A DNA stretch of 64,000 nucleotides, taken from positions 1-64,000 of the forward strand of contig JAKMEE010000006.1 of the NCBI GenBank assembly GCA_022426155.1. Reading direction: 5' to 3'. Source of the DNA: Candidatus Poseidonia sp. GTDB lineage: Archaea; Thermoplasmatota; Poseidoniia; Poseidoniales; Poseidoniaceae. Under the pieces are notes generated by a model. It was not told the DNA's origin, did not search any database, and saw only the letters and a list, made by a program, of their open reading frames with translations. The translations under genes were made by a program, and so were the position numbers. Positions 6,577 through 13,042 of the stretch are shown piece after piece. Each line of letters begins with the position of its first letter. Positions within the stretch are counted from its first letter, which is position 1.

Positions 6577-9534
6577 TCACTCAAAGAAGTCATCGAATTC
6601 GTCAGAGTACTTTGTTCGTGAATTACGAAGACGTGCGTCCAAGACCCGCTTCAATCGCTTTCGCTTCCGAACAATGATAGGGAGCAGGATGAAATTGAGC
6701 ACGATGGTGATGAGCATTACGGCTCCTGCGAGTTGGAATTCTGGCTCCTGCATGTTCTCATTGAGGGTTTGGAGCCATGGAATCCCAAGTGGGGGTTCTG
6801 GTTCTGGTGGTGGGATTGGAATCAGGTGTTGGTTGTAACTCCACCAGTCATCCTCGATCAAGACACGCAAGACGTTTCCAGACGGGTATGTTGCAGTCGT
6901 TTGTTCGTTACCGACGCTATCAATCGGGGCGAGAATGTAATAATAGGTCCGGTAGGGGCGAATTCCATCAACTTCAATTCCACTTTGATTGAAGGTTCCA
7001 ATCTCGCCAGGGGCTGATGAAATGTCCGAGACGAGCGGGGTGATGTAACGCAAATCCACGCCATTTGGCGCTTGCTCTACACGGTATAAATTCCATGTCA
7101 AATCACCTTGCGGCTCATGGTCAGGCCAGGTCCATGACATGTTGAGGTTGTAACACATAGACCAATCAAACGACCGATTGAAGCAATCAGTGCTGTTGGT
7201 GAATTCCCATGTGTGGCTAAATTGGGTCACAACAGACGATGGAGGGATTGCATCTCCACATAGCAAGGCAGCAGAACCCCCAACGCGGGTGATGTTCACC
7301 AACTGGAAGTTTGGCTCCCCCTCGCGGTTGGTGGGTGCGAGAGCGTAAGAGGCACAAATACCAGTTTCCAATGGTTCGGGGTCGGTCCATTGGGTGGTTG
7401 TCAACGAAAGATTGTCCACATGCGTGGTGAGAACTAATTCGCCCCAGATGAATTCGTTGATTCCTTGGCTTGGATCAGGAAAGTAGGTCGTTCCTTGGTT
7501 TCCTTGGAGTTTGTACATTTTCCATTCACCGCTGTAAGGGTTGGTGGTATCTCCAACAATGGTCCAATCCAGTTGAATTTGTCCTCCCTCCAATAAAGTC
7601 CAGTCGAGGTTTTCTGCTGTGATGTTGGCATCGGGAAGGGTTCCGATAATCAGGATGACCCCATTTTCAACCAAATCCAAATGGGCGTGGCCGAATTCGT
7701 CAATTTGGTAGAAGTTTGGAGCTTGTATGGTTGTCCAATTCTGGCTATCAAGCGAGGGGAGGTGACGCAAATCCACCGTCTCCAAATCTATATTTGAGGC
7801 AAGCATGGCGCTGAGGTTCATGTCCAATGAGATGCTTCTTAATCCAATATCACTTGAATCATCTTCTGTGGAGAGAATTTCAATCGAGATCAATTGTAAC
7901 GGTGACTTCCCACTTCCTATGGCATAGTTCTGACCAAGAATTGGCAATTGGATTGAAGATTGGAAGTAGGCTTCTTGTTCACTCACAGCCTCCCCTTCAA
8001 AGTAGGGGTCTATGGTCAAGTTCACGGCATTGAGTACGTCGAACTCAATGTAGGCATAGGCCATAGTTCCAAAGGGGTCTCTGGCCTCAAGCGTGATGTT
8101 ATGGTGCCCTAAGCCGAACATGCTACCTGTTTGGTTCAAAACCTGTCCGTAGCCCCAGACAAAGAATCCTTCACGCCATGTGAAATTGAGAGGTTGGGAG
8201 GCGATGGGACTTGCTCGTGCCACAAGTTCAATGTCATCACTTGTTTGATAGATGCTCAATAAATTTGGTTCTTGGATGTAGGGGTTGATTGTACCTGCCT
8301 CAACCGTTGTGGTCACTGTCATAACGTTGTCCGATGGGCGAACATCGTCACTCGATAGGAATGTGGAAGGTGCCCGGACGCGCAGTAAACGGTTGGCTCC
8401 AGTGGTGGTGAGGTTGTACACGCAGGTGGTTGAGTCTCCTGGCCAGAGGACGGGCACCTCACAGGACTCTTCAACCTCCAAGTCAAATTGAGGGCTGTAT
8501 ACCTCAAATAACACCGTCATGTTGACCACGGATATATTTCCATTATTCGTGATGACGCTATGAACTCGGTCTGTACCATAATAATATTCGGTGGCAAGAT
8601 TGTTGTGGCTTGGATAGATGTCAGACACAACAATGTCATGGCTGTCGTCAAGCACAATTTCTACTTGAGCGAGGTTGTTTTGCACGTTCATGTCTGCATA
8701 GATTGTGCCAGTGGTGTTGAACGCACCCCACTTTAGGATGTACCTGCCTTCTTGAGTATAATTCATCGAAGGGAGATTGATGTTGAAATCGGAAAAACCG
8801 CCCCATGAAGGTAGGTTTGTGACACTGATGTAAGATTCTTTCAGCAAAGAGGTCTCATCGTGGGTCCACAATTGCCATCCGAACATTGCATTCAAGCCGC
8901 AGTTGCCACATGAACTGACTTGTCCCTTTGCGTTGAATACATAATCGGTGTTTGAATTGAGTACATCTTCGCCATCGTAGGTTGCAAGATTGTTGATGTT
9001 TTCAAGAGGGTTGTGATTCTGATTGACAATGATATCAGTGAATTGGACGGTGATGTTAATGGTGTATCGTAGCACATCGTCAGCAGCGCTTTGGTCAATT
9101 TCATCAAATGCAAAGACGATGGTGAAGATGCCTTCTGAATTTTGTCCAGGCGTCCAAATCGATGCAGAGGTATAATTCAATGAGGTGCCGCCGTTGATGT
9201 TTCCAATGTTGATGACCCCCTTCTCTTCGTAATTTGATTTGCACATGTTGGCCGTCACGTTACCCTCGCAGGCATACCAGGCCAATCCACGGTTCAAACC
9301 AGCAGGATTCGTTGCTAAATTTTCGACCTCCACTGTAAACGACATCGGGTCAAAGGAAGAATGCCACGAATTTGGAGCTGGTGAAACTCCATTTTTCAAT
9401 CCCAATGATTGATTGAGGGCAGCACTTGCAGAGGGTGCCAACACCAAAGCACCCATAATGGATGCCAGCATCAAGGAAACAAGGAACAAACTCTTGTTTG
9501 CATGGGGTGAATCGCGTGGCTTGCGCTGTGTCAT
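6577..9534 (-). CDS. Large secreted surface protein with C-terminal membrane anchor
   Basis: A 985-residue protein of unknown function. The N-terminal signal peptide (basic start, then FLVSLMLASIMGALVLAPSA) ends in A-S-A-A. The bulk is beta-rich, with many N-x-S/T sequons and repeated Ig/CARDB-like segments, for example an N-N-G-N-I-S-V-V-N-M-T-V region near 330. Around residues 790-900 a fibronectin-type segment resembles W-T-W-P-D-H-E-P-Q-G-D-L-T-W-N-L-Y-R. A single membrane helix close to the C terminus (LAGAVMLITIVLNFILLPII) is followed by a very basic stretch and an acidic end. I chose the ATG at 9534 because AAGGAGG lies just upstream; an in-frame ATG at 9561 has no comparable site. The 3' end lies nine bases from the tRNA gene. 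Confidence 0.75.
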   Translation of the reverse strand: MTQRKPRDSPHANKSLFLVSLMLASIMGALVLAPSASAALNQSLGLKNGVSPAPNSWHSSFDPMSFTVEVENLATNPAGLNRGLAWYACEGNVTANMCKSNYEEKGVINIGNINGGTSLNYTSASIWTPGQNSEGIFTIVFAFDEIDQSAADDVLRYTINITVQFTDIIVNQNHNPLENINNLATYDGEDVLNSNTDYVFNAKGQVSSCGNCGLNAMFGWQLWTHDETSLLKESYISVTNLPSWGGFSDFNINLPSMNYTQEGRYILKWGAFNTTGTIYADMNVQNNLAQVEIVLDDSHDIVVSDIYPSHNNLATEYYYGTDRVHSVITNNGNISVVNMTVLFEVYSPQFDLEVEESCEVPVLWPGDSTTCVYNLTTTGANRLLRVRAPSTFLSSDDVRPSDNVMTVTTTVEAGTINPYIQEPNLLSIYQTSDDIELVARASPIASQPLNFTWREGFFVWGYGQVLNQTGSMFGLGHHNITLEARDPFGTMAYAYIEFDVLNAVNLTIDPYFEGEAVSEQEAYFQSSIQLPILGQNYAIGSGKSPLQLISIEILSTEDDSSDIGLRSISLDMNLSAMLASNIDLETVDLRHLPSLDSQNWTTIQAPNFYQIDEFGHAHLDLVENGVILIIGTLPDANITAENLDWTLLEGGQIQLDWTIVGDTTNPYSGEWKMYKLQGNQGTTYFPDPSQGINEFIWGELVLTTHVDNLSLTTTQWTDPEPLETGICASYALAPTNREGEPNFQLVNITRVGGSAALLCGDAIPPSSVVTQFSHTWEFTNSTDCFNRSFDWSMCYNLNMSWTWPDHEPQGDLTWNLYRVEQAPNGVDLRYITPLVSDISSAPGEIGTFNQSGIEVDGIRPYRTYYYILAPIDSVGNEQTTATYPSGNVLRVLIEDDWWSYNQHLIPIPPPEPEPPLGIPWLQTLNENMQEPEFQLAGAVMLITIVLNFILLPIIVRKRKRLKRVLDARLRNSRTKYSDEFDDFFE

Positions 9535-9701
9535 CGTCCCCTCCTTGCGGATGGGATTCAAAGACTCATCGCTTCCGAGGCGGGAGATGTCCCTGATTTC
9601 CCCCTTCCTTTGTCACGCCGATGATGAAGAGGTTCTCAAATGATTTTACTGCGTGTGGTCATGGCGGCAACCTCATGAATTACGGGGAATGTGGGAGTCT
9701 C

Positions 9702-10781
9702 ATGCGCCCTGCAAACGTTTCCTCTCTTCAACGAGACGACCGTGGGCTTACTGCAGTGATTGAATTTCTCTCAGCGTTTACTTTATTCTTGATGATTCTC
9801 ACGGCATTTCTTTCACTCGCCCAATTGCAAATGGGCTCAAATGACCCAGCAGTTGACCGTCTGGACCGTGCTGCTGCAATGGGGTTGGATCGCCTTACTT
9901 CGAGTGAAGGATGGTTTGTTCCTTTGTCCGATGATTCTCTTGATTATGCCAATTCAACAGCTGAGTGGCACCTGCATGATGCAGCGTCGCTCAACGATGG
10001 AAGGGTCCAACCTGGGCTGATGGAGGGATACCGGTTGTCGATGGACAAAATCTTGGCTCTCAACAATGTCACGGAACATGGAATGTCACAAGGTTTGGGA
10101 CTCTCGGAAGATTTCAGCCTTCATCTCTCAATTATAGTGATTGAGAGTTCATCCTCCGAACGGCTCGGGGAGGTCCTCTTCAATGGAGGTACGAACCGTG
10201 GTTCAGCTCCATCATCATCAACCGCATATCGAACCTTTTACCAAGAGGGTGAAGCTCTCCAGGTGGTGCTCGAAGTCCATGATGGAGGGCGCAAAAACAA
10301 CATTTTGCAAGTGACTGAAATCATGGCACGCCCGTCTTCAAGTGGACCAGAATGGATTGAAATCAACAATCCAAACAACTTTGCCATCGCACTTAGGGGT
10401 TGGTCCCTCAACCATACGTCCTCAGATGGGTCCACGAATTATCTCTTCCAGTCAGGTGTTCTTTCGGGCAATTCGGTTTCCTTGCTGAGCGGAGATCCAA
10501 CAACTCAAGTGGTCGGAAATGCAACGCATGTTCTTGACCTCGGGCAAGAGGGTTTCCTCGGCATCGGGTCAGTGGACGGCCTTGGCGATGGAGGTGGAGT
10601 TCTACGATTACGGTACACCCAACTCGATGAAGTGGCTCCAGGGGATGTCATGCGCGCTTCTTGGGGCGGTGATACGGGGCTCTTTTTAGTGACGGGCCAA
10701 TCTTTGCAGTGGGGTGGAATTGATCGTTTTACTACAAGCTCATGGAGTATCACAGATGTGCCAACTCCCGGCGAAAATTAA
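9702..10781 (+). CDS. Pilin-like protein with lamin-tail domain
   Basis: The N terminus reads like an archaeal type IV prepilin. A short positively charged leader ends in D-D-R-G, then comes L-T-A-V-I-E-F and a hydrophobic helix to about residue 42. This resembles the haloarchaeal pilin pattern R-G-V-S-P-V-I. Around residues 200-330 lies a lamin-tail-like domain: I-L-Q-V-T-E-I-M, then G-P-E-W-I-E-I-N-N-P-N-N-F-A, and L-R-G-W-S-L. Such domains occur in many exported bacterial and archaeal proteins. The ATG at 9702 is chosen because GGGAG precedes it and it gives a 15-residue leader. The frame is open back to 9621. The gene is followed by three KaiC-like genes on the same strand. Processing by a prepilin peptidase is inference. 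Confidence 0.7.
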   Translation: MRPANVSSLQRDDRGLTAVIEFLSAFTLFLMILTAFLSLAQLQMGSNDPAVDRLDRAAAMGLDRLTSSEGWFVPLSDDSLDYANSTAEWHLHDAASLNDGRVQPGLMEGYRLSMDKILALNNVTEHGMSQGLGLSEDFSLHLSIIVIESSSSERLGEVLFNGGTNRGSAPSSSTAYRTFYQEGEALQVVLEVHDGGRKNNILQVTEIMARPSSSGPEWIEINNPNNFAIALRGWSLNHTSSDGSTNYLFQSGVLSGNSVSLLSGDPTTQVVGNATHVLDLGQEGFLGIGSVDGLGDGGGVLRLRYTQLDEVAPGDVMRASWGGDTGLFLVTGQSLQWGGIDRFTTSSWSITDVPTPGEN

Positions 10782-10858
10782 GGCATAGAAGGTTCTCATT
10801 TCACCGACATTTCGGCGGACACTTCATCAACCTGTGCTTGTTCCATCAGTTTGGTCCC

Positions 10859-11641
10859 ATGCAACCTGCTACCGTATACACAAGAGACCGGTGCGTTACC
10901 GGTATTCACGGATTGGACGAAATTCTCAGGGGAGGAATCCCTTACGGTTCCACGGTTCTTGCGGCGGGGACATGCGGTTCAGGGAAAACCACATTGGGGA
11001 TGGAATTTCTGGTTCGTGGAGCATTGGCTGGTGAAGCATGTGCACATTTTACGGCAACAGAACCTTCGGTAAAATTGCTTGAGAACATCCGGCAGTATGC
11101 CTTTTTTGACATGAACATGGTCGATTCTGGTCTCATCAACGTGTTTGACATGGACGTTCTGTATTCTTGGCTTGGGCTCGACAAAGCTTCGTTTGACCTA
11201 GAGGACGTGCACGCCCTCATCAAGGCCATCGTTGACATCGTGAACACCATTGGTGTGACGCGTTTGGTCATCGATTCAGTAACCACACTTTGTTACAAAA
11301 TCAAATCCGAGCAGTTGATTCGAGACTTTTTGTTCACGCTCGGGAAAAAACTCGCAACGCTGGGGTGCACCACGATCTTGATCTCAGAAATCACTTCTGC
11401 AACCGAAAACGCACACTGGTCATCCTTTGGCGTAGAAGAAGCCATTGCTGACGGAATCATTGTGATGGGAGATTCAGAACGCATGGGCCATTTACTTCGC
11501 TTCCTTCAGGTTGTAAAAATGCGTGGAACTTCACACAGTCGTGCCAAGCATGCCATTGAACTCACCCCCCTTGGCGTCATGCTGACGCCGATGTTGAAAT
11601 GGGGTGCTTCGGCGGATAAATCGAGTCGATGGGGGCAGTAA
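10859..11641 (+). CDS. KaiC/RecA-superfamily ATPase (intact P-loop)
   Basis: A single-domain KaiC-like ATPase of 260 residues. It opens with G-I-H-G-L-D-E-I-L-R-G-G-I-P-Y-G, the typical KaiC lead-in, followed by Walker A G-T-C-G-S-G-K-T-T at 37-45. The E-P-S-V-K-L-L-E-N segment corresponds to the KaiC acidic pair region, although the usual E-E is T-E. Walker B is L-V-I-D-S-V-T-T-L at 136-144. Proteins of this class include ArlH/FlaH of the archaellum and Rad55-like regulators; which group this belongs to cannot be decided by eye. The longer frame start at 10742 overlaps the previous gene and reads as non-homologous sequence, so the ATG at 10859 is preferred. Confidence 0.82.
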   Translation: MQPATVYTRDRCVTGIHGLDEILRGGIPYGSTVLAAGTCGSGKTTLGMEFLVRGALAGEACAHFTATEPSVKLLENIRQYAFFDMNMVDSGLINVFDMDVLYSWLGLDKASFDLEDVHALIKAIVDIVNTIGVTRLVIDSVTTLCYKIKSEQLIRDFLFTLGKKLATLGCTTILISEITSATENAHWSSFGVEEAIADGIIVMGDSERMGHLLRFLQVVKMRGTSHSRAKHAIELTPLGVMLTPMLKWGASADKSSRWGQ

Positions 11642-11643
11642 TC

Positions 11644-12228
11644 ATGTTTGAATTGGATCAACGAATTGCAGAACAATTGACTCAAGTATCTCTGAACAGC
11701 GCTGTTCAGGTTCGTGTCGGAGCAGCCAATTCGTTCATGGTGACCGCTAGCACCATCATTCCGCTCATGCAGATGTTCGAGATGGGTGGCGTTTACATTT
11801 CTGCAAGCCGTGGCGCCGTAGAAATTATTCAGGCCTTTGAAGCCATAGGGATCGACGTGTCCCACATCCAATTCTTGGATTTGGTTTCATCTGGTATTTT
11901 GGGCGGGACTGATGTTCCGTATCCGAACGTTACCTTCGTTGATAGCCCAATCATGCTCGAGAGTATTTTGTTGCGAACACTTTACACCCTTCGGACGGTG
12001 AACACCCCGCGAAACTTTGTGTTCCTTGACAGCGTCAATGCCCTTTCAATCTACAACGATGAACGAATGTTGGCTGAGTACCTTCACACGTTCATCAACA
12101 CCTTCCGCCAACGAGAGGTACTTTCTGTGATTCTCAATGTTCCAGACCAAACACCACCACTGGTGCTTTCGAATTTGGATACATACTGCACCGATATTGT
12201 CGACCGAGGGCAAGTCGTAATTCTTTGA
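11644..12228 (+). CDS. KaiC-like protein lacking a Walker A motif
   Basis: A 194-residue protein that follows the intact KaiC-like ATPase with two bases between stop and start. It appears to share the RecA-like fold: an early strand (N-S-F-M-V-T-A-S-T-I-I), a second strand G-G-V-Y-I-S-A-S-R-G, and a Walker-B-like strand N-F-V-F-L-D-S-V-N-A-L near 120-130. No G-x-x-x-x-G-K-T is present, so ATP hydrolysis is unlikely. The length is short compared with about 230-260 for the family. The homology call rests on motif order and gene context and should be treated as probable. A role as a non-catalytic partner of the upstream ATPase is inference. Confidence 0.6.
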   Translation: MFELDQRIAEQLTQVSLNSAVQVRVGAANSFMVTASTIIPLMQMFEMGGVYISASRGAVEIIQAFEAIGIDVSHIQFLDLVSSGILGGTDVPYPNVTFVDSPIMLESILLRTLYTLRTVNTPRNFVFLDSVNALSIYNDERMLAEYLHTFINTFRQREVLSVILNVPDQTPPLVLSNLDTYCTDIVDRGQVVIL

Positions 12229-12238
12229 GGTGATGATG

Positions 12239-13042
12239 ATGGCGCGTAAGATTACATTCGATGCAGAAGATGAAGAATTCTTTGGCAAGGTCGGCTCCTT
12301 TGGCGTTCCAAAGTTCGACAATGAAATGCGAGGAGGTGTCCCTCGCGGCTTCACCATGATCGCCTTTACAGAAACTGGTTCAGGAAGTGAATTATTTGCA
12401 AAACAATTCACATCACCTGCTGAAGAACCTGACAACACACTTTACATCACAACTGAAGAAGGAAAGCAAGAAATTACTCGTATTTTTCAGAAATACAACT
12501 GGCCGTTGGACATCAATGTCCGTACCATTGGGGAAGAATACAATGCCAATGTCCTCGAACGAGAACTTCTTGCCAGCCGTTACCGTCTGGAAGGATTTCA
12601 ACTTGACGACATTCAACGCTTGGCTCAGACACGATTTGTTGAGGATAACAACCAGGATTATTTGACAGAAGTCACCAATGAGATCATGGGCTTAGGTCCC
12701 TATTTCCGAGCAGTGTTAGACAACTTAGATTTCTTTCTTCAACGTGAAGACCCAGCCCGTGTACTTTCCATGGTCAGGATGCTTCAGGCCCATGCCCAAC
12801 TCGTTCGTGGGTTACTGTTGATCTCAGTTTCGACCGACGGACTTGATCCTGCTATCAAACAAGAATTGTCGTCAATTGCTGACATGGTTCTTTCGTTTAA
12901 AGTACGAACAATTGGTACAGATTTCGAAAATTCCATGATTGTTTCAAAATTCAGAAACGCACCGGAGAATCTCAAAATCCTTGTGTTCCGGGTCACTCCA
13001 GATGAAGGAATCACGCCTGAAACTGTTGAGCGTATTGCTTGA
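12239..13042 (+). CDS. KaiC-like protein with degenerate P-loop
   Basis: This 267-residue protein has the KaiC lead-in (F-G-V-P-K-F-D-N-E-M-R-G-G-V-P-R-G) followed at about 43-52 by T-E-T-G-S-G-S-E. The position of the essential P-loop lysine is therefore not lysine. A later strand R-A-V-L-D-N-L-D-F-F-L resembles Walker B. Four start codons in a row (GTG at 12230, then ATG at 12233, 12236 and 12239) are in frame. GAGGTG at 12227-12232 best suits 12239. It is the third of three consecutive KaiC-like genes, all apparently in one transcript. Nucleotide binding without hydrolysis, or a purely structural role, is inference. Confidence 0.65.
   Translation: MARKITFDAEDEEFFGKVGSFGVPKFDNEMRGGVPRGFTMIAFTETGSGSELFAKQFTSPAEEPDNTLYITTEEGKQEITRIFQKYNWPLDINVRTIGEEYNANVLERELLASRYRLEGFQLDDIQRLAQTRFVEDNNQDYLTEVTNEIMGLGPYFRAVLDNLDFFLQREDPARVLSMVRMLQAHAQLVRGLLLISVSTDGLDPAIKQELSSIADMVLSFKVRTIGTDFENSMIVSKFRNAPENLKILVFRVTPDEGITPETVERIA

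Follow-up and report, generated by a model that had tools for sequence, protein, structure and literature searches.

Organization of the P1–P4 locus

The DNA considered here (the window) comprises positions 1 to 64,000 of the forward strand of contig JAKMEE010000006.1, from a Candidatus Poseidonia sp. assembly (GCA_022426155.1) of the archaeal family Poseidoniaceae. It harbours a plus-strand run of four genes, termed P1 to P4, in which a prepilin-like membrane protein is followed by three KaiC-type proteins, one an intact ATPase and two without a working ATP-binding loop. These three genes (P2-P3-P4, the trio or cassette) recur in the same order across the phylum and are probably linked to type IV pili. 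All four open reading frames (ORFs) are present at the coordinates given by a first-pass annotation of the sequence, and carry the following features:

9702–10781, plus strand: P1, prepilin-like membrane protein with a C-terminal lamin-tail (LTD) domain (Pfam, N-terminal motif, AlphaFold model)
10859–11641, plus strand: P2, intact KaiC-family ATPase (Pfam KaiC, invariant catalytic residues)
10967–10993, plus strand: P2 Walker A, GTCGSGKTT, residues 37–45 (sequence and alignment)
11516–11524, plus strand: P2 KMR, counterpart of the trans-acting finger hairpin KxRG in KaiC (alignment to KLRGTSH of KaiC sequences in the PDB)
11629–12228, plus strand: P3, probable KaiC-fold pseudo-ATPase without P-loop or finger hairpin (profile alignment, Foldseek)
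12016–12045, plus strand: P3 Walker-B-like strand FVFLDSVNAL, with Asp134-Ser135 invariant (phylum-wide P3 alignment)
12230–13042, plus strand: P4, KaiC pseudo-ATPase with Walker A Lys and Thr lost and the KFR hairpin kept (Pfam KaiC)
12368–12391, plus strand: P4 degenerate Walker A, TETGSGSE, with Lys replaced by Ser53 and Thr by Glu54 (sequence)
12947–12955, plus strand: P4 KFR hairpin, Lys240 and Arg242 (alignment)

P2 and P3 overlap by 13 bases and P3 is separated from P4 by a single base, so the trio is likely to be expressed as one transcript. The first gene product, P1, had been described at first pass as a prepilin-like protein with a lamin-tail domain, and this description holds. Its LTD domain scores above the Pfam cutoff (E = 2.1e-8) and its AlphaFold model (predicted local distance difference test, pLDDT, 87) has a long N-terminal helix (residues 12–44) and, at the C-terminus, an Ig-like domain that is matched best in the PDB by the tails of human lamins A and B1. 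The N-terminus, RDDRG-LTAVIEFLSAF..., is prepilin-like, with the charged tail and the G/A before a hydrophobic helix that define class III prepilins, and its motif, D[ED]x[GA]-[LMV][TV]AV[IV]EFL, is conserved in 14 relatives. No Pilin_N or archaellin match was returned for P1 by a Pfam scan. No match to the prepilin peptidase family Peptidase_A24 was found in the 89%-complete source genome, despite its prepilins and archaellum operon; this gap may reflect a divergent peptidase or a missing contig, and neither proves nor excludes cleavage of P1.

Active-site elements of the three KaiC-type proteins

P2 is a single-domain protein of 260 residues that matches the Pfam KaiC family (PF06745) with an E-value of 3.6e-52 (177.5 bits, curated cutoff 26.6). 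It is the only member of the trio to carry a Walker A motif of the form GxxxxGK[TS], at the position predicted initially, and its designation as an intact KaiC ATPase is thus upheld. Six residues are invariant in 18 P2 sequences from across the phylum: Lys43 and Thr44 of Walker A, Glu68, Asp139 of Walker B, and Lys220 and Arg222. The last two belong to a Lys220-Met-Arg222 element that aligns with the KxRGTSH hairpin of KaiC in PDB sequences. In KaiC hexamers this hairpin contacts the ATP of the neighbouring subunit. In plasmid sequences, nothing beyond ordinary KaiC relatives of <60% identity was found for P2.

P2 lies near the CI domain of KaiC (E = 6e-40 to KaiC in the PDB), a similarity that would also suit a KaiC-based timing device, a clock or hourglass, in light-exposed archaea. 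Such a device is scarcely credible here: the proteins are single-domain, KaiA and KaiB were not noticed in the neighbourhoods, and the cassette occurs in many lineages across the phylum, the majority of them probably living without exposure to light. P2 reaches only 96.7 bits against the two-domain NCBIfam circ_KaiC model, well below its cutoff of 546.

P4 is homologous to P2 over its full length (hhalign E = 8.6e-18) and matches Pfam KaiC at E = 1.1e-14 (54.8 bits, cutoff 26.6), which establishes its fold; it has no match in plasmid sequences. The Mg-binding Thr/Ser of Walker A is Glu or Asp in 16 of 16 P4 sequences across the phylum. Loss of the Walker A lysine, as noted at first pass, applies to every sampled Poseidoniales P4 (GSGSEL in the source) and not to the whole phylum, since two sequences from a sister class (f3; GSGKEL and GAGKEL) among the 16 keep it. 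The basic-x-basic hairpin is retained in these 16 sequences; in two of them Lys replaces the Arg, and in one the first Lys is an Arg.

P3 is the most divergent member. A P-loop is absent from all 20 P3 sequences examined across the phylum, in agreement with the initial observation that Walker A is missing, and the C-terminus is reached before the hairpin. The Pfam KaiC match (E = 1.6e-4, 21.5 bits) falls under the cutoff of 26.6, and the P3 profile has no meaningful match among PDB sequences. Nevertheless, a profile of the 20 phylum-wide sequences can be aligned to P2 across 139 columns (hhalign probability 89.5%, E = 1.9e-6), a significance reached only with these sequences and not with a Poseidoniales-only profile. 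The AlphaFold model is of low confidence (pLDDT 54, from a shallow alignment); all 50 of its PDB matches listed by Foldseek are KaiC/RecA-type ATPases, FlaH included (E from 3e-5, template-modelling score ~0.44–0.58). These comparisons suggest that P3 probably adopts a KaiC fold. The prediction that both P3 and P4 are RecA/KaiC proteins is therefore secure for P4 and supported for P3. As judged from the residues, the loss of active-site parts appears patterned, with P2 predicted to possess both half-sites, P4 the trans-acting one only, and P3 neither.

Conservation of the cassette

All 77 named Poseidoniaceae loci in which the four genes are present have them in the order P1-P2-P3-P4. The conservation among Poseidoniales on which the first-pass system claim was made to depend extends to the sister family (f2, presumably Thalassarchaeaceae), in which P1 to P4 also stay linked. 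Homologue searches were made within the phylum, presumably Thermoplasmatota, whose surveyed genomes are mostly incomplete metagenome-assembled genomes. A profile search identified P3 relatives in 204 of 390 genomes, some of the matches being weak. From the stronger matches 39 loci outside Poseidoniaceae were sampled, and this choice biases the sample towards better P3 matches. P2 lies directly before P3 at 38 of the 39, and the complete P2-P3-P4 order occurs at 29, some of the remainder being contig ends. All three genes are present in 15 families, mostly overlapping or within ~25 bp of each other. The gene order thus recurs far more often than expected by chance, and the trio is a phylum-wide unit that extends beyond Poseidoniales. 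A P1-like LTD protein (LTD E = 2.5e-11) is also found upstream of the cassette in family f20 (locus L179).

Conserved order could in principle reflect co-location without common function, the genes merely hitch-hiking in an operon, and the housekeeping genes that flank the locus (Cox15, CtaB, UbiE and V-ATPase genes) are likewise conserved within Poseidoniaceae. In the sister family, however, these flanks are gone whilst P1 to P4 remain together. Because the P2-P3-P4 order persists phylum-wide, hitch-hiking is largely contradicted and is regarded as highly improbable.

Two further observations concern the cassette. In the sister class f3 (L191, L193 and L210), a conserved protein of 141 residues, of unassigned family, is encoded immediately 5' of P2. 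Separately, a record labelled as a Rhodobiaceae bacterium (L122) carries a Poseidoniaceae cassette and is probably mislabelled.

Probable association with type IV pili

A scan for pilin signals of the archaeal SPVIATIL type covered 44 cassette loci and 478 non-cassette ORFs. All 18 ORFs with such a signal share the strand of the cassette and are the first or second gene downstream of it, and none was found elsewhere among the 478 ORFs. Class III pilins stand just downstream of the cassette at 13 of the 44 loci, and both downstream pilins that were tested match Pfam Pilin_N. In Poseidoniales, 24 trio genomes were checked for an orthologous pilin, which was clear in 23 and weak in the remaining one, a fragmented genome; it was found in none of 11 trio-free genomes checked. 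In genera g9, g16 and g18 this orthologue lies next to the trio. Pilus platform genes show a similar distribution in the sister family, where at least two T2SSF genes occur in 12 of 12 trio genomes and in none of 46 others (Fisher p = 1e-12, a value not to be taken at face value because perhaps only one or two evolutionary events underlie it). Together, these data make a link between the trio and pili probable.

The source genome also possesses an archaellum operon, on a separate contig (C40:34000-53900), in which sequence features identify two archaellins, ArlCDE-like proteins, ArlF, ArlG, ArlH, ArlI and ArlJ; a gene for a surface protein of 1644 residues precedes it. The presence of this operon, together with a P4 match to the NCBIfam ArlH model at E = 2.3e-13, might suggest that the trio serves the archaellum as an accessory of the ArlH type. 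P2 and P4 nevertheless reach just 35.5 and 50.4 bits against this model, below its cutoff of 215, and the operon is complete with its own ArlH. A search for ArlJ in 80 genomes showed that genera g16 and g21 have the trio but no ArlJ, and g13 and g20 the reverse; in the sister family ArlJ is found in 5 of 12 trio genomes and 8 of 46 others, and so does not track the trio. Neither ArlI nor ArlJ was found near the trio at the 39 other loci. With a separate ArlH in the operon, and with ArlJ and the trio occurring independently, a role for the trio as part of the archaellum was rejected; the accessory reading is largely contradicted and very unlikely. Of the kinship with pilus and archaellum machines suggested at first pass, only the pilus side therefore stands.

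On balance, the reading best supported, held as somewhat more likely than not, is that the trio forms a KaiC-type module dedicated to a non-archaellum type IV pilus, as its regulator or motor clamp. A number of observations weigh against this. No PilB or PilC gene was found adjoining the trio at any of the 39 other loci, so the search for nearby motor genes proposed at first pass gave none there. In the source genome the matching pilin is outside the operon, ~80 kb from the trio and 5 kb from a Tad-like motor. Families f5 and f27 have T2SSF genes and no P3 match, and f24 and f35 have cassette loci with no pilin nearby. The T2SSF co-occurrence in the sister family may go back to only one or two gains or losses. 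Nine loci (f30, f37, f38, f48, f51 and f54; two at contig ends) have P2-P3 without a recognisable P4, which may therefore be dispensable. Finally, the low confidence of the P3 model bears on the fold of one of the three proteins.

The chief rival to the pilus module is a broader one, namely that the trio is a general signal-transduction hub, comparable to haloarchaeal CirA and GvpD, that acts on transcription or phosphorylation and has pili as one output among several. In its favour, many cassette loci lack a nearby pilin, and a protein of ~371 residues with MetOD1/ATC-hydrolase-like domains, MetOD1 being a signalling domain, is encoded within the operon, between P3 and P4, in f13 and f20 (L177:3751-4875; L179:9285-10400), a finding that also suits the pilus module. 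In addition, the KaiC-like CirA influences motility and cell shape in Haloferax (PMC13286277). However, the partners seen to recur at the cassette are pilins and P1, with no kinase, transcription factor or receiver domain among them, and a hub of this kind is considered rather unlikely.

The pilus genes of the source genome are arranged as follows. A Tad-like TadB/TadC/TadA cluster lies ~70 kb downstream of the trio on the same contig (C31:76000-95900), with the Pilin_N pilin 5 kb further on, and the trio-to-pilin distance is ~80–105 kb in several Poseidoniaceae genomes that have both on one contig. A second pilus system is present at contig C19. An open frame of 4575 residues with a Pilin_N-like stretch was also noted (C40:83258), and similar frames of ~4500–4700 residues occur in several other Poseidoniales genomes.

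A possible mixed KaiC ring

If P2-P3-P4 is inherited as one control module of a non-archaellum type IV pilus, P2 would be its ATP-binding KaiC ring protein. P4 would not bind Mg-ATP normally; because its KxR hairpin is kept, it could enter the P2 ring and act on the ATP of P2. P3, with neither site, might serve as a ring cap, ring breaker or adaptor. The ATP state of the ring would then influence pilus motor or platform assembly, or pilin production, in the manner of ArlH for the archaellum; contact with a PilB-type motor and the direction of this control are inferred. P1 and the downstream class III pilin would be the surface components served by the module.

The residue pattern, with the trans-acting hairpin kept in P4 and absent from P3, makes mixed rings plausible, and the mixed-ring mechanism itself is put forward tentatively. 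The same caution applies to its fuller form, a possible though doubtful one, in which a hetero-oligomeric KaiC ring with split active sites constitutes a phylum-wide pilus switch and the dead subunits set the number of ATP sites that fire. KaiC rings are mostly known as single-protein rings, and a natural set with separated half-sites would offer a clean system for studying their tuning. With this cassette, the proposed regulation of live KaiC proteins by dead homologues becomes directly testable. The trio represents an ancient unit of three genes in a group that ranks among the most abundant marine archaea, and pilus control is a testable function for it. Its fixed order and its position beside type IV pilus subunits point to an undescribed surface-pilus switch, the dead partners of which have been retained through deep evolution. 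Unlike the uncultured Poseidoniales, some relatives elsewhere in the phylum are probably cultured and open to biochemistry and genetics.

Relationship to known KaiC systems

Among the closest known systems is ArlH (FlaH), a single-domain KaiC-fold protein that serves a machine of the type IV pilus kind and is genetically linked to pilin-type subunits. The trio differs in that it stands outside the archaellum operon, where a separate ArlH is encoded, has no adjoining motor genes, and comprises three paralogues of which two lack a working P-loop. Makarova et al. are said to have proposed, in mBio in 2017, that KaiC-family ATPases, inactivated ones included, act as regulators of archaeal pili or as signalling hubs.

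Both the control of archaeal pili by KaiC proteins and the existence of inactivated homologues had thus been predicted. KaiC-family ATPases (arCOG01171-01175), with genes beside those of archaeal pili, were proposed as type IV pilus regulators in 2016 (PMC4858521); the cases consulted there involve a KaiC that is either alone or accompanied by a DEATH-like or KaiB-like partner, rather than one active and two dead proteins. Inactivated KaiC domains (iKaiC) were predicted to be signalling parts in 2017–2018 (PMC5847659, which cites the 2017 mBio paper). These domains, and DUF7504, DUF7090 and DUF7125, share with P4, and probably with P3, a KaiC fold with a lost active site, and relatives of P3 and P4 match the three DUFs weakly in Pfam. 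The iKaiC examples consulted are fused to REC or HalOD1 domains, whereas P3 and P4 are stand-alone proteins encoded together with an active paralogue in one operon. GvpD and CirA of Halobacteria also belong to the KaiC-like regulators and act on gas vesicles or on motility and cell shape, and one relative of P4 has a weak match to the P-loop model of GvpD; these two are, however, single proteins in another gene context. The cassette is not described in the consulted parts of the literature that names both Thermoplasmatota and KaiC, although the 2017 KaiC survey may already list parts of it. The first-pass suggestion of an undescribed system is thus justified for the exact cassette, within the literature examined, and not for the general idea, which was already published. 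What appears to be new, within the same limits, is a phylum-wide cassette with a fixed division of lost active-site parts.

A divergent surface protein beside P1

Upstream of P1, on the opposite strand, the window encodes one further protein of note:

6577–9561, minus strand: divergent large surface protein, 994 residues (signal peptide and C-terminal transmembrane segment, by eye)

It belongs to no Pfam family and is fast-evolving, yet it is found beside P1 in Poseidoniaceae and at most sister-family loci.

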